Below are positions 9,409 through 19,047 of a stretch of 64,000 nucleotides of DNA, in pieces. The notes beneath the pieces are model-generated. The model had not been told where the DNA came from and ran no database searches. It was given only the letters and a program-made list of their open reading frames with translations. The stretch's first letter is position 1. Each line of letters opens with the position of its first letter. Made by a program: the position numbers and the translations under genes. Source of the stretch: Halorussus marinus. Its GTDB lineage: Archaea > Halobacteriota > Halobacteria > Halobacteriales > Haladaptataceae. The DNA is taken from positions 62,001 to 126,000 of the forward strand of contig NZ_SBIV01000005.1 in assembly GCF_004765795.1 (NCBI RefSeq), written 5' to 3'.

Positions 9409-10257
9409 ATGGCCGACCTCGCGTTCTCGACGAACGCCTACACGAACCACTCGCTTTCCGAGGCCGTCGACCGGATCGCCGACCACGGCTACGCCGGCGT
9501 CGAACTGCTCGGCGACGCCCCCCACGCGTACTTCCCCGAGTTCGGCGACGAGGACCGCCGAGCCCTGACGGCGGCGCTCGATGCGACCGACCTCGCGGTG
9601 TCGAACGTCAACGCAAACACCGCGATGGGGTACTACGACGACGCCCCGCCGTCGGCGTTCTTCGAGCCGAGCCTCATCACCGCCGACGACGACCGCCGGT
9701 CGTGGCGGGTCGAGTACACCAAGCGCGCGATCGACCTCGCCGACGCGGTCGGATCGCCGGCGGTCTGCGTCGCGACCGGGCGGCCGTTGCCCGGAAACCC
9801 GCCCGAGCGCGCCCGCGAGCACCTCGAAGCGTCGCTCGACGAGATCCTCGACTACGCCGAGCCTCGCGGCGTCGAGGTCGGCATCGAGTTCGAGCCCGAA
9901 CTCCTGATCGAGTGCACCGACGAGGTGCTCGAACTGATCGAGACGGTCGACCGCGACGCGCTCGGGGTGAACCTCGATCTGGGCCACGCCGCGGTGTACG
10001 GCGAGGACCTCGCCGAGACCATCGAGCGCACCGCCGGCCGCGTCACCGGGGTCCACCTCGAAGACATCGTCGGCGGCCGGCGCGGGAAACACTACCACCG
10101 GATCCCCGGCGAGGGCGATCTGGACTTCGCCTCGATCTTCGACGCGCTCGACGACGCCGGCTACGACGGCTTCGTGACGATGGAGCTGTACACCTACCCC
10201 GACGAGCCCGACCGGGCGGCCCGCGAGTCGATGGAGCAACTGAACCGGTACGTCTGA
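9409..10257 (+). CDS. sugar phosphate isomerase/epimerase-like TIM barrel
   Basis: 282-residue xylose-isomerase-like (AP endonuclease 2 fold) protein. Metal and substrate motifs are EFEPELLIE, NLDLGHAAV, VHLEDIVGGRRGKHYH and FVTMELYTYP, which supply the usual Glu, Asp/His, His and Glu ligands. The start FSTNAYTNHSLSEAVDRI is clearly related to that of the second TIM barrel at 15175, so the two are paralogues within 6 kb. It would isomerise or epimerise a keto-sugar or a cyclitol. Its stop is one base from that of the convergent amidohydrolase. It may be functionally linked to the inositol-phosphate/ebo-like genes downstream, but this is not proven. Confidence 0.85.
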   Translation: MADLAFSTNAYTNHSLSEAVDRIADHGYAGVELLGDAPHAYFPEFGDEDRRALTAALDATDLAVSNVNANTAMGYYDDAPPSAFFEPSLITADDDRRSWRVEYTKRAIDLADAVGSPAVCVATGRPLPGNPPERAREHLEASLDEILDYAEPRGVEVGIEFEPELLIECTDEVLELIETVDRDALGVNLDLGHAAVYGEDLAETIERTAGRVTGVHLEDIVGGRRGKHYHRIPGEGDLDFASIFDALDDAGYDGFVTMELYTYPDEPDRAARESMEQLNRYV

Positions 10258-11601: not shown

Positions 11602-12987
11602 TCACGCTCGATCGAGTAGCGACGGCGCCTCGAAGCCGGCGTCGAGGCCCTCGACGCCAAGCAGGTCGGCGAGCGTCGGCGCGACCGCCCGGGCGTCGAC
11701 CGCCCCGTCGGCGACCGACTCGTCGGGCGCGGCCGGGCCGCCGAACCCGTAGACGCCGAGCGTCGCGTCGTCGACCCGCCCGTGCGAGCCCTGAATCTTC
11801 GAGGGGTCGAGCGACGCCAGCCCCTCGTCGCCGAAAAAGAGCTCGCAGGGGTCGAAGCCCGGTTTCGCGTGGATGTCCATGTCCGTGGCGTAGTAGGGGG
11901 CGTCGGCGCGGTCGGTCCACCAGTAGTACTGGAACCACGCCGTCGGCTCGGCGACGACCACGAGGTCGCCCGCGTTCGGGTGGTCGAGGCCGTACTCCGC
12001 CCGGTCGTCGCCGGTCGCGATCCGATCGATCCCGTCGAGGTCCGCGAGCGCCTCGCGGGCGTCCCCGATCGCCCCTCCGTCGGCGTAGACGTGGGCGACC
12101 TGATGGTCGACCATGGCGAACGCCGCCGACCCGGCTACGTCGACCTCCTCGCCGCCCTCGCCGTCGTCCCGCACGGCGAGCAGGTCGGCCGCCCGGAGCG
12201 CGCGGTTCGGGAAGACGGGCGTCTCGACCGCGTGGAAGCCGTACTCGCTGACGACGTTGATCGCGGTCTCGTTCCACCGGTCGCCGCCCCGGAGGAACTC
12301 GAGAAACTCCCCGACCATCGCGTCGACGGTCTCGACCGCCGCGGCCTGCTCGTCGGAGTCGGGGCCGTACCGCTGGCCGTCGTAGTCGAGGTGGGGGACG
12401 TACACCCACAGCAGATCGGGGTCGTAGCGCTCGACCGCCTCGCGGGCGGCGGTCAGGATCCACTCGGTGCCCCGCTCGTTGGCGCCCGGCCCCCAGTAGT
12501 GGTGGAGCGGGAAGTGACCGTGGTCGGCCTCCAGGTGGTCGTAGAAGTCGTCGGGGTTGGTCCAGCAGTTCATCTCGATCAGGTCGTTGTTCTCGTCCTC
12601 GATCGGCGAGGGAGTCACCGCCACGTCGGCGGACGTCCCGATGAGGTGCTGGAAGAACAGCGCGCCGGTCGTGAGCCCGGCGTCGCTGGCGGTCTCCCAG
12701 AGCCGGTCGCGGTCGCCCCGGTCGCGCTCCCAGAACGCCACGTCGTCGGTCGCCCGGTCGTACTCGCCGCTCGAAACGTCGCCGTGGGTCGCGGGCGACT
12801 GGCCGGTCGCGAGCGTCGTCTGGACCGGGACGGTCACCGCCGGGAACGGCGGCCGGAGGTCGGCGGTCGGGCCGCCGTCGAGCAGTTCGGTCAGGTTGGG
12901 CGCGCGACCGCCGCCGAGGTGGTCGCGCTGGAGCCCGACCACGTCGAGGACGATCGCCCGACCCGCGGCGCCCCCGGCCCCGCTCAT
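11602..12987 (-). CDS. alkaline-phosphatase superfamily protein (nucleotide pyrophosphatase type, EboF-like)
   Basis: 461 residues. The start at ATG 12987 overlaps the stop of inositol-1-phosphate synthase by 4 bp (ATGA), implying translational coupling. Superfamily features are IVLDVVGLQRDHL, the nucleophile region PAVTVPVQTTLATGQ, the metal-binding VPHLDYDGQRYGP and the later QGSHGRVDD. Enzymes of this fold cleave phosphomono- or diesters, so it could dephosphorylate the inositol phosphate made by its operon partner. Alkaline-phosphatase-like EboF is a component of the bacterial ebo cluster. No signal peptide, so cytoplasmic. Confidence 0.85.
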   Translation of the reverse strand: MSGAGGAAGRAIVLDVVGLQRDHLGGGRAPNLTELLDGGPTADLRPPFPAVTVPVQTTLATGQSPATHGDVSSGEYDRATDDVAFWERDRGDRDRLWETASDAGLTTGALFFQHLIGTSADVAVTPSPIEDENNDLIEMNCWTNPDDFYDHLEADHGHFPLHHYWGPGANERGTEWILTAAREAVERYDPDLLWVYVPHLDYDGQRYGPDSDEQAAAVETVDAMVGEFLEFLRGGDRWNETAINVVSEYGFHAVETPVFPNRALRAADLLAVRDDGEGGEEVDVAGSAAFAMVDHQVAHVYADGGAIGDAREALADLDGIDRIATGDDRAEYGLDHPNAGDLVVVAEPTAWFQYYWWTDRADAPYYATDMDIHAKPGFDPCELFFGDEGLASLDPSKIQGSHGRVDDATLGVYGFGGPAAPDESVADGAVDARAVAPTLADLLGVEGLDAGFEAPSLLDRA

Positions 12988-14201
12988 CGGTCGGCCTCCG
13001 TCCCGGACGAGCCCGCGTGGCGCTCGACGTAGGCTTCGAGCAGGTCGAACTGCCGGGAGAGGTCGTGCTCGTCGACGCCGAGCGGCGACTTGAAGAACGA
13101 CGCGAGCTGGGGCTGGACCCCCGACTCGCCGGCCTCGTCGGCGTGGGCCGCGAGCCGTACGAGGTCGAGGACGAGGGGCGCGGCCAGCGCCGAGTCCGAG
13201 CCCTCCCAGGTGAACTGCATGGTCATCTGGGTGTCGAGAAACCCCTCGAAGTGGATGTAGTCCCACGCGGTCTTCCAGTCGCCCAGCGACGGCGTGTAGT
13301 CGATCCGCACCCGGTTGTGGCCCATGTCCGGGAGGATCGAGTCGAGCACGCCGCCCTTGCTGGCGAGCTTACCGGCCTCGTTGGCCTCGTCTTCGAGCAC
13401 CTGCCCGTCGGTGTTGCCGAGGATGTTGTGGCCCTCCCACGACATGACCCGGAGGTTCCGCCCGGCGAACATCGGCGCGAGCGCCGACTTCACGAGCGTC
13501 TCGCCGGTCTTCGCGTCTCGACCCATGTGGGGGACGCCCTCCTGGCGGGCGAGGTCGTCGAGCCCGTCGAGCGCCGACCCGGTGCTGGGCGTGAAGTTGA
13601 CGTACGGGTGGCCGTCGGCGATCGCGGCGTAGGCGTACAGCGAACTCGCGGGGAGGTCCTGATCGTCGTCCGCGATGGCGCGTTCGACCGCCTCGCGGGT
13701 GTCGTATCGGTCGGGGGCCGCGAGCTCTGGCTCGGTCGAGGCCACGTTGACCACGACCAGTCGGTCGGCGTCGACCGCCCGGCGGAACGACTCGTAGTCG
13801 TCCCGGATCTGGTCGACGACCTCCTCGACGCCGAAGCGGTCTTCGAGCGGCGGCCCGTCCCCGAGATCCGCGACCGCCTCGCCGCAGTTGACGGCGGTCC
13901 CCGTCTTGATCCGGCCGTCGATCTCGCGGAGGTCCTCGGCCACCGCCTCGACGGTCTCGGCGGTCGGGACCCCGCTCTCGGAGAGCGACCGGGCGGTCTC
14001 GACCAGCCCCGTCTCCCGGATGTCGTGGCCGCCGAACGCGAACTCCTCGACCGCGGGCAGGTCGAGGCGCGACGCGGGTTCGCGGCCCGTCACCATCCCC
14101 GTCTCGTCCGTCCGACCGTGCGCGATCGCGCGCGCGCCCGCCATCGCAGTCGTCGCAACGTTGCCGCGCGCCCCGATCAGCCAGACCCCTGTTTTCGTCA
14201 T
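12984..14201 (-). CDS. ino1: myo-inositol-1-phosphate synthase family protein
   Basis: 405 residues. This NAD-dependent cyclase converts glucose 6-phosphate to inositol phosphate. Visible are the Rossmann motif GARGNVATTAMAGA, VNVASTEP, YVNFTPSTG, the segment GETLVKSALAPMFAGRNL with a Lys expected in catalysis, and the C-terminal WKTAWDYIHFEGFL. It matches the archaeal/actinobacterial short form. It heads a two-gene operon with the phosphatase-like gene (4-bp overlap) and is divergent from the TatD/TIM/UbiA operon. In archaea inositol phosphate feeds archaetidylinositol or inositol-based solutes; here the neighbourhood suggests an ebo-like product. Confidence 0.9.
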   Translation of the reverse strand: MTKTGVWLIGARGNVATTAMAGARAIAHGRTDETGMVTGREPASRLDLPAVEEFAFGGHDIRETGLVETARSLSESGVPTAETVEAVAEDLREIDGRIKTGTAVNCGEAVADLGDGPPLEDRFGVEEVVDQIRDDYESFRRAVDADRLVVVNVASTEPELAAPDRYDTREAVERAIADDDQDLPASSLYAYAAIADGHPYVNFTPSTGSALDGLDDLARQEGVPHMGRDAKTGETLVKSALAPMFAGRNLRVMSWEGHNILGNTDGQVLEDEANEAGKLASKGGVLDSILPDMGHNRVRIDYTPSLGDWKTAWDYIHFEGFLDTQMTMQFTWEGSDSALAAPLVLDLVRLAAHADEAGESGVQPQLASFFKSPLGVDEHDLSRQFDLLEAYVERHAGSSGTEADR

Positions 14202-14254
14202 CCCAACCGAGTACGCCAGCGAGCCCCTTCGTTCTTATGGGCTACCTGAGATGT

Positions 14255-14270
14255 TTTTCCGGGCGGAAAA
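14255..14270. promoter_or_regulatory. palindrome in the divergent ino1/TatD promoter region
   Basis: TTTTCCG and CGGAAAA are perfect 7-bp inverted arms around two bases, in the 170-bp gap between two divergent operons. It is 54 bp from the inositol-phosphate synthase start and 102 bp from the TatD-like start. It may be an operator shared by both operons. The regulator is unknown. Confidence 0.5.
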
Positions 14271-14371
14271 TACGACCCCGGCAAGTCGCGGCCGTTCCTG
14301 CCGGCAGTATAGTATCACTACGATGAGGAAACAACTCCATAACAAAGTGGCTACGGGCCGGTATCCCGACG

Positions 14372-15172
14372 ATGCGGATCATCGACCCACACATGCACAT
14401 GGTGTCCCGGTCGAGCGACGACTACGAGCGCGCTCGACGCGCGGGCATCGAGTGCTGTATCGAACCGGCGTTCTGGAGCGGCACCGACAAGCGACACGCC
14501 GAGTCGTTTTTCGACTACTTCGAGCAGATCATCGACTTCGAGACCGACCGCGCCGAGCGGGCGGCGGGGATGGACCACTACGTCACCATCGCGCTCGAAC
14601 CGAAAGAGGCCAACTACCCCGAGATGGCCGACCGAGTCATGGAACGCATTCCCGAGTACCTCGACCGCGAGAACGTGGTCGGAGTCGGCGAAATCGGACT
14701 CGATCAGGGCACCGACGAAGAAGAAGAGGCGTTCCGGCGCCAGCTCCGGATGGCCGAGGAGCGCGAGCTCCCGGTCATCGTCCACACGCCCCACGAGAAC
14801 AAGCCCGAGGGGACCGAGCGCCTCGTCGAACTGATCGAAGACGAGGGCGCGACCCAAGAGCGGATCATCATCGACCACAACACCGTCGACACCGTCGAAA
14901 CCGCGGTGGCGACCGACTGCTGGGTCGGGTTCACTCTCTACCCCGGCAAGATCGAAGCCGAGGCCGCCATCGACCTGCTCGAAGAGCACGGCACCGACAA
15001 GATGATCCTCAACAGCGCGGCCGACTGGGACCCCTCCGACCCGCTGGCGGTCCCGAAGGCCCGCGACAAGATGCTCGATCGGGGCTGGGACCGCGATGCG
15101 GTCCGGAAGGTCGTCTTCGACAACCCCTACGAGTTTTTCGACCAGTCGCCGAACTTCGACTACGAGCGGTGA
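14372..15172 (+). CDS. TatD-family metal-dependent hydrolase (EboB-like)
   Basis: 266-residue amidohydrolase-fold barrel. Metal ligands: HMHM near residues 7-9, Glu in GVGEIGLDQ, His in VIVHTPHEN, His in IIIDHNTVD and Asp in LNSAADWDP. TatD relatives are nucleases or small-molecule hydrolases. In the ebo cluster the TatD-like protein (EboB) is one of the conserved components. It is the first gene of a three-gene operon: its stop is 2 bp before the next ATG. A CATAACAAAG stretch about 25-30 bp upstream may serve as TATA for a leaderless message. Confidence 0.88.
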   Translation: MRIIDPHMHMVSRSSDDYERARRAGIECCIEPAFWSGTDKRHAESFFDYFEQIIDFETDRAERAAGMDHYVTIALEPKEANYPEMADRVMERIPEYLDRENVVGVGEIGLDQGTDEEEEAFRRQLRMAEERELPVIVHTPHENKPEGTERLVELIEDEGATQERIIIDHNTVDTVETAVATDCWVGFTLYPGKIEAEAAIDLLEEHGTDKMILNSAADWDPSDPLAVPKARDKMLDRGWDRDAVRKVVFDNPYEFFDQSPNFDYER

Positions 15173-15174
15173 CG

Positions 15175-16002
15175 ATGGAGTTCGCATTCTCAGCCAACGC
15201 GTTTCAGGAGTACACTCCGGTCGAGACCGTCGAGGAGCTCGCGGCCATCGGCTACGACGGCGTCGAACTGCTGTTGGGGGGCTCGCACCTCCACCCCGAC
15301 GACACCGGCCCCGACGAGATTCGGGCGGTCGAGGACGCCCTCGAGGAGACCGGGCTCGCGATCAGCAACTGCAACGCGTTTATGGTGTCCGAGGAGGACT
15401 TCCAGCATCCGTCGTACATCGAGAAAGACCCCGAGTACCGCCGCGAGCGCGTCGAGTACACGCTGGGCGCGCTCGAACTGGCCGACGCGTTCGGCGCCGA
15501 GTACATCTCCGTCCAGCCCGGCGGGCCGATCCCCGAGGGCAAGTCCCGCGAGTGGGGGATGGAGACGTTCGCCGAGAGCATCCGCGAGGTGGTCCCGGCC
15601 GCCGAGGAACTCGGCGTCGACGTGCTCGTCGAGCCCGAACCCGACCTCCTGATCGAGACCACCGACCACTTCCTCGACTTCGTCGACCGGATCGACTCCG
15701 AGGCGGTCGGCTGTAACTTCGACGCGGGCCACCTGTTCTGCGTCGGCGAGGACCCCGCCGCCGCGGTCGAGCGCCTCGAAGCCCACACCGGCCACTACCA
15801 CGTCGAGGACATCCCCGAGGACCGGAGCCACGAGCACACCCAACTGGGCGAGGGCGCGATGGACATCGAGGGCTTTCTCGACGCGGTCGCGTCGACGGGC
15901 TACGACGGGTTCGTCACGGTGGAGCTCTACCCGTATCGGGAGACCGCCGCCGAGACCGCGCGCGAGGCGTACGCGTACCTCGACGAGCGCGGGTGGGCGT
16001 AG
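15175..16002 (+). CDS. sugar-isomerase-like TIM barrel (EboE-like)
   Basis: 275 residues, starting at the ATG 2 bp after the TatD-like stop. Xylose-isomerase-like barrel motifs are VEPEPDLLIETTDH, CNFDAGHLF, YHVEDIPEDRSHEH and FVTVELYPY, giving a Glu/Asp/His/Glu metal site. The first 20 residues are similar to those of the TIM barrel at 9409. EboE of the ebo cluster is a TIM-barrel protein of this fold. It would act on a sugar or cyclitol intermediate. The next gene begins at the base following its stop, so expression is coupled. Confidence 0.87.
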   Translation: MEFAFSANAFQEYTPVETVEELAAIGYDGVELLLGGSHLHPDDTGPDEIRAVEDALEETGLAISNCNAFMVSEEDFQHPSYIEKDPEYRRERVEYTLGALELADAFGAEYISVQPGGPIPEGKSREWGMETFAESIREVVPAAEELGVDVLVEPEPDLLIETTDHFLDFVDRIDSEAVGCNFDAGHLFCVGEDPAAAVERLEAHTGHYHVEDIPEDRSHEHTQLGEGAMDIEGFLDAVASTGYDGFVTVELYPYRETAAETAREAYAYLDERGWA

Positions 16003-16935
16003 GTGGGCGTGACTCGGAGCGACGCGACCGGCCTCCGGGCCGCGGTCGGCGCGTACGCCGAACTGCTCCGGGTCCCGAACCTCTTTACCGCGCCGCCCGA
16101 CGTGATCGTCGGCGCGGCGCTGGCCGCGGCCGCCGGCGCGACGGTCCCGCTCGGTGCGACCGCGGGGCTCGCGGTCGCGTCCGCCCTGCTCTACGCCGGG
16201 GGCACCACGCTGAACGACTACTTCGACGCCGCGGTCGACGCCGCCGAGCGCCCCGAGCGCCCGATCCCCTCCGGACGGGTCTCGCGGGCGGCCGCGCTCG
16301 GCGTCGGCCTCTCGCTTTTGGGCGGCGGCGTCGCGGTGGCGGCCGCGGCCGGCGGCGCTCGCGGGGGGCTGGTCGCGGCGGCGCTCGCGGCGGCGGTGGT
16401 GCTGTACGACGCCGGGCTGAAGGGTAGCGCTCCGGGATTTCTGACGATGGGATCGACGCGCGGGCTCAACGTCTTTCTGGGCACGACCGCCGCCGGGCTC
16501 GCGCCCTCGGTGGCCCCGGCGTGGCTGTTCGCGGTCCCGGTCGTCGTCGCCGGCTACATCGCGGCGGTGACGTCTATGGCCGCCGACGAGGCGACCGGCG
16601 GGGACCGGCGGGCGATCGCGCTCGCGGGCGCGGCCGCCGTCGCGGCGGGCGTCGTGGCCCCCGCGCTCGTCTGGGCGGTCGGGCCCGGCGCGGTCGCCGT
16701 CGGGGCGAGCGGGCTCGCCGCGGTCGGCTTCCTCGCGTGGACGGGCGGCGCTCTCCGGGCGGCGTACCGCGACCCGACGCCCGAGACCGTCGGCCCCGCG
16801 GTCGGCACCTGCGTCCTCGGGCTCGTCGCCCTCGACGCGGCGTTCGCGGCCGTCGCTGGGGCCGAGTGGGCCGCGGTCGCGCTCGCGTTTCTCCTCCCGG
16901 CGGTCGGGCTCTCTCGGGCGTTCGACGTCTCCTGA
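16003..16935 (+). CDS. UbiA-like membrane prenyltransferase (EboC-like)
   Basis: 310 residues with about eight or nine hydrophobic helices. The GTG start directly abuts the TAG of the upstream gene; a second GTG lies two codons on. The first aspartate motif is intact (NDYFDAAVDAAERPERPIP) and binds prenyl diphosphate through Mg2+. The second motif is unusual (ADEATGGDRR), lacking one of the normal aspartates. UbiA enzymes move a polyprenyl group onto an acceptor inside the membrane; the ebo cluster has a UbiA-like EboC. It is the last gene of the operon, so the substrate may be a product of the cyclitol/sugar enzymes beside it. Confidence 0.88.
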   Translation: MGVTRSDATGLRAAVGAYAELLRVPNLFTAPPDVIVGAALAAAAGATVPLGATAGLAVASALLYAGGTTLNDYFDAAVDAAERPERPIPSGRVSRAAALGVGLSLLGGGVAVAAAAGGARGGLVAAALAAAVVLYDAGLKGSAPGFLTMGSTRGLNVFLGTTAAGLAPSVAPAWLFAVPVVVAGYIAAVTSMAADEATGGDRRAIALAGAAAVAAGVVAPALVWAVGPGAVAVGASGLAAVGFLAWTGGALRAAYRDPTPETVGPAVGTCVLGLVALDAAFAAVAGAEWAAVALAFLLPAVGLSRAFDVS

Positions 16936-17088: not shown

Positions 17089-19047
17089 ATGTCACGAGAC
17101 AACGAACAGACGAGCGGAATCGGCGACCCGTCCTCGCGGCGAACGTTCCTCAAGGCCACCGCGGCCGCGGGAGCGCTCGTCGGGGTAGGCGGCGTCGCGG
17201 CGGGACAGGAGCGCCAGGAGTTCGTCTTCGGCGGCGAGGTCGCGGGCTGGATGGGCCGAGAGCCCTCGGAGATCGCGGACACGACGAACCCGACGCTCGA
17301 ACTCGAACCCGGACAGGAGTATGCGTTCACCTGGGAGAACACGGACGGCCGACCCCACAACGTCGCCATCCTCGACGGCGAGGGCGAGGCGCTCGAATCG
17401 ACCGAGATCATCAACGAGGAGGGCGCGACACAGACCCTGCAGTTCTCGGCGACCGAGGAGATGGCCGAGTACGTCTGTGAGGTCCACCCCGCGTCGATGC
17501 GGGGCTCGATCAGCTTCGGCGGGGAGACGACCCAAGCCGAGGAGTCCCAGGAGCGGTTCATGCCGTTCGGCGCCGGTGCGGGCGTCGAGAAGGTCGCCGA
17601 AGGGCTGGTCTCACCGGTCGGGTTCGAACCCGCGCCCGACGATTCGGGGCGGGTGTTCATCCTCGACCAGCCCGGCCGGCTCTACGTCCACGACGGCGAA
17701 CAGCTTCAGGACGAGCCGTTCCTCGACGTCTCGGACATGCTGGTCGACGTCGGCGGCCGAGAGAGCGGCCCGTTCGACGAGCGCGGACTGCTCGGGCTGG
17801 CGTTCCACCCCGAGTTCGCCGACAACGGTCGGTTCTTCCTGCGGCTGAGCGTGCCGCTCGGTGACCCGCCGTACGTGAGCTCCGCCGAGTGGGGCGAGCG
17901 CCCCGGCGAGTTCGACCACATGGAGGTGCTCTCGGAGTTCCAGGCAAGCGAGGACCTCTCGAGCGCCGATTCCGAGTCCGAGACGCGACTGCTCGAGATG
18001 CCTTCGCCCCAGTTCAACCACGACGCGGGGGCGGTCGCCTTCGGACCCGACGGCTACCTCTACGTGCCGACCGGCGACGGCGGCGACGCCGACGACACGG
18101 GGCTCGGCCACGTCGAAGACTGGTACGACGCGAACGAGGGCGGCAACGGGCAGGACGTCACCCAGAACCTGATGGGCGGCGTGCTCCGCATCGACGTCGA
18201 CAACGAGGGCGAAGACCTGCCGTACGCCATCCCGGAGGACAACCCGTTCGCGGAGGGCGGCGACTTCGCCGACTACGACGGACTACCGGAGTACTACGCG
18301 TGGGGACTGCGCAACCCGTGGAAGGCGTCGTTCAACGACGGCGACTTCTACGTCGCGTCGAACGGGCAGAACCTCTTCGAGCAGGTCGACATCGTCGAGA
18401 AGGGCGGCAACTACGGCTGGAACGTCAAGGAGGCGACCCACTGCTTCAGCACGGACAGCCCCAACGACCCGCCCGAGGACTGTCCGGACAGCACGCCCGA
18501 CGACGTCCGGGGCGGCGAGCCGTTGCTCGACCCCGTCATCGAGTACCCCCACACCTACGAGGGTCGCGGGGTCGGCGTGTCGATCATCGGCGGGTACATG
18601 TACAACAACGACGCCATCTCCGGGCTGAACGGCAAGTACGTCTTCGGCGACTACAGCCAGACGGGAGCCGACCCCGCGGGCCGGATCTTCGCGGCGACGC
18701 CGTCCGAGAGCGAGGGCGAACTCTGGTCGCTGGAGGAGGTCCAGCTCGAGGGCTCGCCGAACGGACAGCTCAACATGTACGTCCTCTCGTTCGGACGGGA
18801 CAACGACGGCCGCCTCTACGTGATGGGCAACGACAGCGGCGTGCCCCAGGGCGAGACCGGCGTCGTCTACCGGATAGTCCCGGCCGGCGAGGGCGAGCAG
18901 ATATCGGCGCCCCAGGGCGAGGACATGACGACCGAGGGCGACGGCGAGATGACGACGACGGCGGAAGGCGAGAGCATGACAACGACCGAAAGCGAGAGCA
19001 TGACGACCGAGGGCGACGGCGAGATGACGACGACCGAGAGCGAGTAG
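17089..19047 (+). CDS. Tat-exported cupredoxin-PQQ sugar dehydrogenase fusion
   Basis: 652 residues from ATG 17089, chosen because it places SSRRTFLKATAAAGALVG in a Tat signal. About residues 40-145 form a plastocyanin-like domain with blue-copper ligands visible in GRPHNVAIL, YVCEVHPASM. About residues 165-610 form a glucose/sorbosone dehydrogenase-type six-bladed propeller (NRRRG-like ERGLLGLAFHPEF, FNHDAGAVAFGPDGYLYVPTGDGGD, GLRNPWKASF, GGNYGWNVKE), which binds PQQ and calcium. The last 40 residues are a Met/Thr/Glu/Gly repeat. The fused copper domain probably receives electrons from sugar oxidation at the cell surface. PQQ synthesis genes are not in the window. Confidence 0.9.
   Translation: MSRDNEQTSGIGDPSSRRTFLKATAAAGALVGVGGVAAGQERQEFVFGGEVAGWMGREPSEIADTTNPTLELEPGQEYAFTWENTDGRPHNVAILDGEGEALESTEIINEEGATQTLQFSATEEMAEYVCEVHPASMRGSISFGGETTQAEESQERFMPFGAGAGVEKVAEGLVSPVGFEPAPDDSGRVFILDQPGRLYVHDGEQLQDEPFLDVSDMLVDVGGRESGPFDERGLLGLAFHPEFADNGRFFLRLSVPLGDPPYVSSAEWGERPGEFDHMEVLSEFQASEDLSSADSESETRLLEMPSPQFNHDAGAVAFGPDGYLYVPTGDGGDADDTGLGHVEDWYDANEGGNGQDVTQNLMGGVLRIDVDNEGEDLPYAIPEDNPFAEGGDFADYDGLPEYYAWGLRNPWKASFNDGDFYVASNGQNLFEQVDIVEKGGNYGWNVKEATHCFSTDSPNDPPEDCPDSTPDDVRGGEPLLDPVIEYPHTYEGRGVGVSIIGGYMYNNDAISGLNGKYVFGDYSQTGADPAGRIFAATPSESEGELWSLEEVQLEGSPNGQLNMYVLSFGRDNDGRLYVMGNDSGVPQGETGVVYRIVPAGEGEQISAPQGEDMTTEGDGEMTTTAEGESMTTTESESMTTEGDGEMTTTESE
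18925..19034 (+). repeat. 35-bp direct repeat, two copies, in the 3' end of the dehydrogenase gene
   Basis: Identical 35-bp copies at 18925-18959 and 19000-19034, offset by 75 bp (25 codons), encode MTTEGDGEMTTT-type tails. The in-frame offset means copy-number change would lengthen or shorten the tail without a frameshift. Confidence 0.85.

Follow-up and report, generated by a model that had tools for sequence, protein, structure and literature searches.

An apparently horizontally acquired, ebo-related gene module of the MIPS type in haloarchaea

Known ebo clusters and the haloarchaeal locus

The ebo literature describes bacteria and algal plastids. The classical eboABCDEF operons of Bacteroidota, cyanobacteria and eustigmatophyte plastids encode EboD, a DHQ-synthase-like sugar phosphate cyclase. 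An actinomycete ebo-like cluster, the SCO3242 type, is known in Streptomyces, Nonomuraea, Embleya and Saccharomonospora; the annotated Streptomyces cluster has the order MIPS-SCO3242-SPI-EboA-TatD-EboE-NPP, where MIPS is myo-inositol-1-phosphate synthase, and one Streptomyces cluster of this MIPS type adjoins a gene of the ScyD/ScyE family. Our literature searches, which covered open-licence papers, found no archaeal ebo case.

The window analyzed here is a 64,000-nt stretch of Halorussus marinus contig NZ_SBIV01000005.1, and all coordinates are positions within it (Table 1). An initial annotation had reported five genes in two divergent, tightly coupled operons. All five lie where it placed them and their Pfam matches agree with the families it named; the TatD, TIM and UbiA-like genes diverge from the NPP and MIPS pair, the end of MIPS and the beginning of NPP have 4 nt in common, and on the plus strand the gaps are 2 nt (TatD-TIM) and 0 nt (TIM-UbiA). 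The set was nevertheless incomplete: a sixth member of the module, the second TIM barrel gene TIM0, had been overlooked. Its usual site, in most of 37 haloarchaeal loci, is directly after the UbiA-like gene, whereas in the window it is displaced to the opposite flank, with a gene for an M20 hydrolase in between; TIM0 proteins share 64-79% identity among the haloarchaeal loci. The region between the MIPS and TatD starts has a GC content of 57%, against 70% for the window, and a palindrome within it is not conserved. After the module, the window carries a Tat-signal cupredoxin-GSDH gene.

Table 1. Features of the module in the window.
Feature	Position	Strand	Profile match or remark
TIM0, second xylose-isomerase-like TIM barrel	9409..10257	+	PF01261 157 bits
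NPP-type (alkaline-phosphatase superfamily) phosphodiesterase, EboF family by sequence	11602..12987	-	PF01663 176 bits
MIPS, myo-inositol-1-phosphate synthase	12984..14201	-	PF07994 165 bits, PF01658 115 bits
Divergent intergenic region, presumed promoter, 170 bp	14202..14371	.	between MIPS and TatD starts
TatD-like metal hydrolase, EboB family by sequence	14372..15172	+	PF01026 69 bits
TIM, xylose-isomerase-like TIM barrel	15175..16002	+	PF01261 160 bits
UbiA-superfamily prenyltransferase, EboC/SCO3242 lineage	16003..16935	+	PF01040 67 bits, cut-off 34

Distribution across Halobacteria

Of 292 Halobacteria genomes, 37 carry the EboC-like gene, and every one of these 37 also encodes MIPS, against just one of the 255 genomes that lack the EboC-like gene (Fisher p about 3e-46, a value that takes no account of relatedness). 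The layout NPP- MIPS- / TatD+ TIM+ UbiA+ TIM0+ is kept in 27 of the 37 loci, the remaining ten being rearranged, partial or contig-cut versions of it. The grouping that had been noticed in a single genome is thus conserved in other haloarchaea and is beyond chance. Module-bearing and module-free genomes stand side by side within several genera, Halorussus included, and a search of viral contigs with the UbiA-like protein gave no match.

Elsewhere, MIPS serves the synthesis of inositol phospholipids or compatible solutes, and it is present in the control genome of Haloferax volcanii. If the enzyme of the module made inositol for such ordinary uses, its neighbors would be coincidental. Halomarina-type genomes do have this MIPS without the rest of the module, and at two such loci the neighbors are glycosyltransferases or similar genes; the retention of gene order in 27 of 37 loci, the co-occurrence of 37 of 37 against 1 of 255 and the recurrence of the same gene set in bacteria nevertheless make this explanation highly improbable. 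Synthesis of archaetidylinositol or di-inositol-phosphate was set aside because the partner genes are missing from the module, as was inositol catabolism, in which a synthase would make no sense.

Family membership and the cyclase

By its sequence, the TatD-like protein is a member of the EboB family: it is 44% identical to the Streptomyces ebo TatD and has the EPxFWxG, FxDY, YPxK and DW residues that are invariant across 104 family members. The NPP-like phosphodiesterase can likewise be assigned to the EboF family, as it shares 41-42% identity with the Streptomyces NPP of a MIPS-type ebo cluster and has the invariant residues common to 99 family members, whereas the other PF01663 proteins of the same genome are without EboF-family motifs; two outgroup rows of the NPP tree (L179 and L183) have the canonical motifs. 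The EboF-family metal site is remodelled, in the window's protein as well, which casts doubt on a simple phosphatase reaction.

The UbiA-like protein matches PF01040 above its cut-off, carries an NDxxDxxxD motif that is invariant in its family alignment, and in a predicted model has the UbiA fold, matching UbiA structures with DGGGP synthase as the nearest. Its best NCBIfam match is EboC at 189 bits, which misses the cut-off of 250 (Algoriphagus EboC scores 409), followed by the SCO3242 model at 181 bits, below the cut-off of 260; the next UbiA model reaches only 71 bits. In profile terms, the protein falls between the EboC and SCO3242 models and below both cut-offs.

The two TIM barrels are not EboE. 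Against the EboE model, for which the cut-off is 250 and a true EboE scores 503, they reach 26 and 24 bits, and a profile search of 41 genomes found no EboE over the cut-off. TIM is separate from EboE in the tree and nearest to the TIM barrels of a Planctomycetota module (49-53% identity), and both TIM and TIM0 lie outside the SPI clade. The tree does not settle where TIM0 stands relative to TIM and EboE, so that TIM0 probably, but no more than probably, arose from TIM by duplication in haloarchaea. No match to the EboA model NF035938, which gives true EboA proteins 170-180 bits, was found among 37 genomes of haloarchaea and 4 of planctomycetes, none of which is a positive control, in agreement with the initial report, which saw no EboA-like gene.

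That report had counted five parts matching ebo and had made the link depend on the subfamilies of the TIM barrel and the UbiA-like protein. Three of the five parts stand (TatD as EboB family, the phosphodiesterase as EboF family and the UbiA-like protein as EboC/SCO3242 lineage), whereas the TIM barrel is not the EboE counterpart it had been taken for and the cyclase is an analogue. A standard ABCDEF operon in which the cyclase alone has changed would account for the EboB- and EboF-family members and the EboC-lineage protein; in its strict form it is refuted by TIM barrels that are not EboE and by the failure to find EboA, and the nearest bacterial modules are also without EboA and EboE, leaving it with very little probability.

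The cyclase itself can be assigned with confidence. It is the sole PF07994 match in the genome, both PF07994 and PF01658 are over their cut-offs, and it aligns to Archaeoglobus MIPS (1u1i) at 296 bits with four lysines conserved, the catalytic lysines being invariant across 70 sequences. No EboD was found at the locus and no second cyclase gene among its neighbors. When 85 loci were surveyed, 39 had EboD, 23 had MIPS and none had both, and an SPI-type sugar isomerase accompanied all 23 MIPS loci and none of the 39 EboD loci. The absence of any locus with both suggests that the two cyclases are alternatives. Within Gemmatimonadota both occur, EboD at L084 and MIPS at L078 and L083, and clusters with MIPS for EboD also occur in Actinomycetota and Planctomycetota; the suggestion of an archaeal version with a different cyclase was thus right about MIPS at the place of EboD and wrong about an archaeal invention.

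A proposed pathway and its relation to known systems

We suggest, at a probability of roughly 0.55, that the cluster is a MIPS-type biosynthetic module related to ebo and gained by horizontal transfer, whose product would be a prenylated cyclitol derived from inositol-1-phosphate. MIPS would convert glucose-6-phosphate to inositol-1-phosphate, a compound that has many other uses, which counts against a dedicated cyclitol pathway. The TIM and TIM0 isomerases may then epimerise, isomerise or dehydrate the cyclitol, and the EboC-like prenyltransferase would add a prenyl chain, in this archaeon probably geranylgeranyl, to a hydroxyl or ring carbon within the membrane, in a reaction resembling the alkylation of a phosphorylated polyol by DGGGP synthase. 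Substrates of the EboB- and EboF-type proteins could be intermediates that carry a phosphate or can be hydrolysed. MIPS together with an SPI-type isomerase would substitute for the EboD cyclase of classical operons.

The UbiA-like enzyme might instead prenylate an aromatic or quinoline acid, with MIPS supplying inositol for a separate step. In vitro data on an EboC protein speak for this and against a cyclitol substrate: Ubi-297 of Maribacter farnesylates 8-hydroxyquinoline-2-carboxylic acid, a quinoline acid and not a cyclitol (PMC9235831). The strict co-occurrence of MIPS with the EboC-like gene and the mutual exclusion of MIPS and EboD argue for the cyclitol as central, and we regard a quinoline-type substrate as quite unlikely. 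Somewhat less unlikely, though still improbable, is an idea put forward for ebo in Nostoc, by which the module would transport a small molecule through the membrane, its enzymes building or loading a carrier instead of producing a stand-alone metabolite. The ScyD/ScyE-family neighbor in Streptomyces would fit this, as would the cupredoxin-GSDH gene, relatives of which a direct search placed near 6 of the 37 haloarchaeal loci; against it, EboA and EboE, both required in Nostoc, were not found here, and no conserved transporter partner was seen. A carrier is compatible with the prenylated cyclitol that we favor, as the cyclitol lipid could itself be the carrier.

If EboD and MIPS are alternatives, the intermediate that they have in common would presumably be a cyclitol. 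It is conceivable, as a tentative extension that we consider rather doubtful, that EboD and the unrelated pair of MIPS and SPI-type isomerase feed one ebo-type pathway, and that haloarchaea use the MIPS route by way of an operon from bacteria now distributed through the class, giving a prenylated cyclitol lipid or carrier of a kind so far not described from archaea. The MIPS variant adds a cyclitol-forming step with a well-characterized enzyme family and product, inositol-1-phosphate, and since it occurs here in organisms otherwise almost without MIPS, the substrate of the pathway is directly testable in a haloarchaeon. The cluster thus suggests a second route into a little-understood bacterial pathway, one that can be tested in an archaeon.

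Among known systems, archaeal DGGGP synthase, a separate gene whose product makes the core membrane lipid, belongs to the same superfamily as the UbiA-like protein and is its nearest solved structure by sequence profile and fold, at only ~20% identity. Classical eboABCDEF operons share EboB- and EboF-family members and an EboC-lineage prenyltransferase with the haloarchaeal module; they differ in having EboD rather than MIPS, in having EboA and EboE, and in their lack of an SPI-type isomerase (0 of 39 EboD loci). The actinomycete cluster is closer, with identities of 44-47% for MIPS, 44% for TatD, 41-42% for NPP and 45-49% over about 150 aa for the UbiA-like protein, yet it has the EboA and EboE that haloarchaea lack, and on the SCO3242 model its prenyltransferase reaches 348 bits, above the cut-off of 260, whereas that of the window stays below it at 181. 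Given this score, the position of both TIM and TIM0 outside the SPI clade and the lack of EboA as well as EboE, we rejected an assignment of the window's module to the SCO3242 type.

The nearest relative is a Planctomycetota operon with the order MIPS-TatD-TIM-UbiA-SPI-NPP, and the Planctomycetota module groups with the haloarchaeal clade when the proteins are concatenated for the tree (SH-aLRT 99). In a tree of UbiA only, this grouping is not resolved, and the outgroup branches of that tree are too long for use. The cluster apparently came from bacteria to archaea by horizontal transfer. The Planctomycetota modules (L232, L241 and L245) differ in forming a single continuous operon and in having an SPI-clade isomerase at the place of haloarchaeal TIM0 (SPI was not detected in L241 and L245). 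They resemble the haloarchaeal module in missing EboA and EboE, in encoding MIPS, TatD, TIM, UbiA-like and NPP proteins (identity about 40-50% for MIPS, TatD, TIM and NPP), and in sharing the order TatD-TIM-UbiA.

Gene content and layout of the module

All five genes named in the initial annotation, encoding an NPP-type (EboF-family) protein, myo-inositol-1-phosphate synthase (MIPS), a TatD-like (EboB-family) protein, a xylose-isomerase-like TIM barrel and a UbiA-like protein, lie where it placed them in the 3.76-Mb, 37-contig source genome; it overlooked a sixth, the TIM barrel TIM0, so the module is bigger than described. TIM0 is counted in because it immediately follows the UbiA-like gene in most other haloarchaea, and the M20 hydrolase gene between TIM0 and NPP here is outside the module. 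The MIPS and NPP genes share 4 nt; TatD-TIM and TIM-UbiA are spaced by 2 and 0 nt. Immediately downstream lies a Tat-signal protein, relatives of which are close to 6/37 other haloarchaeal loci. The divergent intergenic region holds a perfect inverted repeat, TTTTCCGGGCGGAAAA, not kept in the 29 other loci checked.

Features of the module and its surroundings
Feature	Position	Strand	Remark
TIM0	9409-10257	+	sixth module gene
NPP-type protein	11602-12987	-	
MIPS	12984-14201	-	
Inverted repeat	14255-14270		
TatD-like	14372-15172	+	
TIM barrel	15175-16002	+	
UbiA-like	16003-16935	+	
Tat-signal protein	17092-19047		cupredoxin + glucose/sorbosone dehydrogenase domains

Relation to ebo families and to bacterial modules

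The proposed likeness to bacterial ebo holds for TatD and NPP, extends to the lineage of the UbiA-like protein, and fails for the TIM barrel as EboE. TatD (44% identity to Streptomyces ebo TatD) has the residues that never vary among 104 sequences spanning haloarchaea, Actinomycetota, Bacteroidota, Gemmatimonadota and Planctomycetota, and NPP (41-42% to Streptomyces counterparts) has those invariant across 99 NPP-type sequences. With the two prenyltransferase models EboC and SCO3242 the UbiA-like protein scores 189 bits (cut-off 250) and 181 (cut-off 260), the next UbiA model giving 71; for comparison, the two models give 409/129 for Algoriphagus EboC and 99/348 for the Streptomyces protein. 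Since its scores fall below both cut-offs and far above the next model, it can be placed on sequence grounds in the EboC/SCO3242 lineage, though not in either named family. With the EboE model the TIM barrels reach 26 and 24 bits (cut-off 250; true EboE, 503), and in a tree they lie apart from EboE. Among 41 genomes none had an EboE over cut-off and none an EboA match, bearing out the reported absence of EboA.

The cluster had been presented as an archaeal ebo version with a swapped cyclase, yet MIPS-for-EboD also occurs in Streptomyces, Embleya, Nonomuraea and Gemmatimonadota, and is therefore no archaeal peculiarity. On annotated Streptomyces plasmids the set is MIPS - SCO3242 prenyltransferase - SPI (a sugar isomerase clade) - EboA - TatD - EboE - NPP, unannotated Embleya and Nonomuraea loci carry the same set, and SCO3242 and SCO3243 (myo-inositol phosphate synthase) are numbered consecutively in the S. 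coelicolor CDA region (PMC3610822). In 85 bacterial loci, a non-random sample (80 are top matches of one scan), the cyclase is EboD in 39 and MIPS in 23, never both, and SPI accompanies 23/23 MIPS loci and 0/39 EboD loci. Gemmatimonadota have both types (EboD in L084; MIPS and SPI in L078 and L083), and the MIPS-SPI pairing extends beyond ebo to Hymenobacter and Roseomonas clusters. Mainly because of this distribution, within and outside ebo, there is reason to think that MIPS plus isomerase take the place of EboD. The proposed ebo reading is partly borne out: the cluster is an ebo-related, MIPS-type module that bacteria have as well, rather than an archaeal eboABCDEF with a single exchanged part.

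The Hymenobacter and Roseomonas clusters (L080, 8845-17546; L082, 8875-18187) encode MIPS, a Gfo/Idh oxidoreductase, a YcaO-like protein, an SPI-type isomerase and a PIG-L deacetylase. A ScyD/ScyE-family gene (L076, 7629-8828) lies immediately ahead of a Streptomyces MIPS-type ebo cluster. Two Herbidospora loci (L131, L134) have UbiA-like, SPI and NPP genes only, with no MIPS or TatD nearby; L086 and ~14 more loci, mostly Planctomycetota, have an EboC-like gene without nearby ebo genes, which in L086 comes after a phosphoglucosamine-mutase-like gene.

Possible chemistry

Window MIPS aligns along its length with Archaeoglobus MIPS and keeps four lysines, presumably catalytic. The structure nearest to the predicted UbiA-like model (pLDDT 88) is DGGGP synthase, an enzyme that couples a phosphorylated polyol with GGPP; the UbiA-like enzyme could analogously attach a prenyl group to inositol-1-phosphate or a derivative. 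The TIM barrels show only distant likeness to ketose 3-epimerases and inositol-pathway isomerases. Maribacter EboC farnesylates quinoline acids in vitro (PMC9235831), and an aromatic or quinoline acid might be prenylated here too, which we consider quite improbable. Nostoc ebo mutants do not export the scytonemin monomer; that the haloarchaeal module likewise moves a small molecule across the membrane, as put forward for ebo in Nostoc, seems unlikely.

The predicted NPP model has an ENPP fold. Relative to Xanthomonas NPP, at residues we take to be metal ligands, the first-motif Asp is V, one His of the PHLDY stretch is Gln and DH is EY. EY is invariant (99/99 EboF-family sequences), His-to-Gln occurs in most of these, the first Asp is missing from the family too, and the metal site is remodelled relative to canonical NPP in every phylum sampled. 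With its ligands changed, phosphodiesterase activity is not to be assumed, and EboF proteins in general may be something other than conventional phosphodiesterases.

Distribution and origin

Run against 292 Halobacteria genomes, the EboC model gave 160-202 bits in 36 and 100 bits in one more, where a contig end truncates the gene; other UbiA proteins scored below 90, with a clear gap. The grouping is conserved, NPP- MIPS- TatD+ TIM+ UbiA+ TIM0+ recurring in 27 of 37 loci (the others are rearranged, partial or contig-end-cut). MIPS is present in 38 of the 292, namely all 37 EboC-like genomes and G207 (Fisher p ~ 3e-46, a statistic that ignores shared ancestry), and several times the pair is both present and absent within one genus (1/6 in the window's own). 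In G020, G208, G249 and G255 MIPS lies apart from the UbiA-like gene, elsewhere in the assembly; the control genome, Haloferax volcanii, has MIPS. In Halomarina-type haloarchaea (L075 and L199; G207) a close MIPS relative lies in a glycosyltransferase region without the module, and G208 seemingly has two module copies divided among contigs (L056, L060, L197, L198).

A concatenated MIPS+TatD+UbiA+NPP tree (quick method, SH-aLRT support only, Bacteroidota root, some rows short of one or two genes) supports a haloarchaeal clade (100) and unites it with five Planctomycetota loci (99), labelled from four loci and the phylum of G292; the remaining Planctomycetota and two further phyla fall outside. 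The simplest reading of the tree would be a single bacterial transfer, whose direction we infer, followed by spread through haloarchaea. At 64-79% GC per gene, the module does not stand out as a recent arrival. The closest modules are those of Planctomycetota: window NPP is 40% identical to that of one planctomycete, and in another, L232, whose MIPS frame is interrupted by a stop and did not go into the tree, a single operon, MIPS-TatD-TIM-UbiA-SPI-NPP, matches the window at 48% (MIPS), 48% (TatD) and 50% (TIM) identity.
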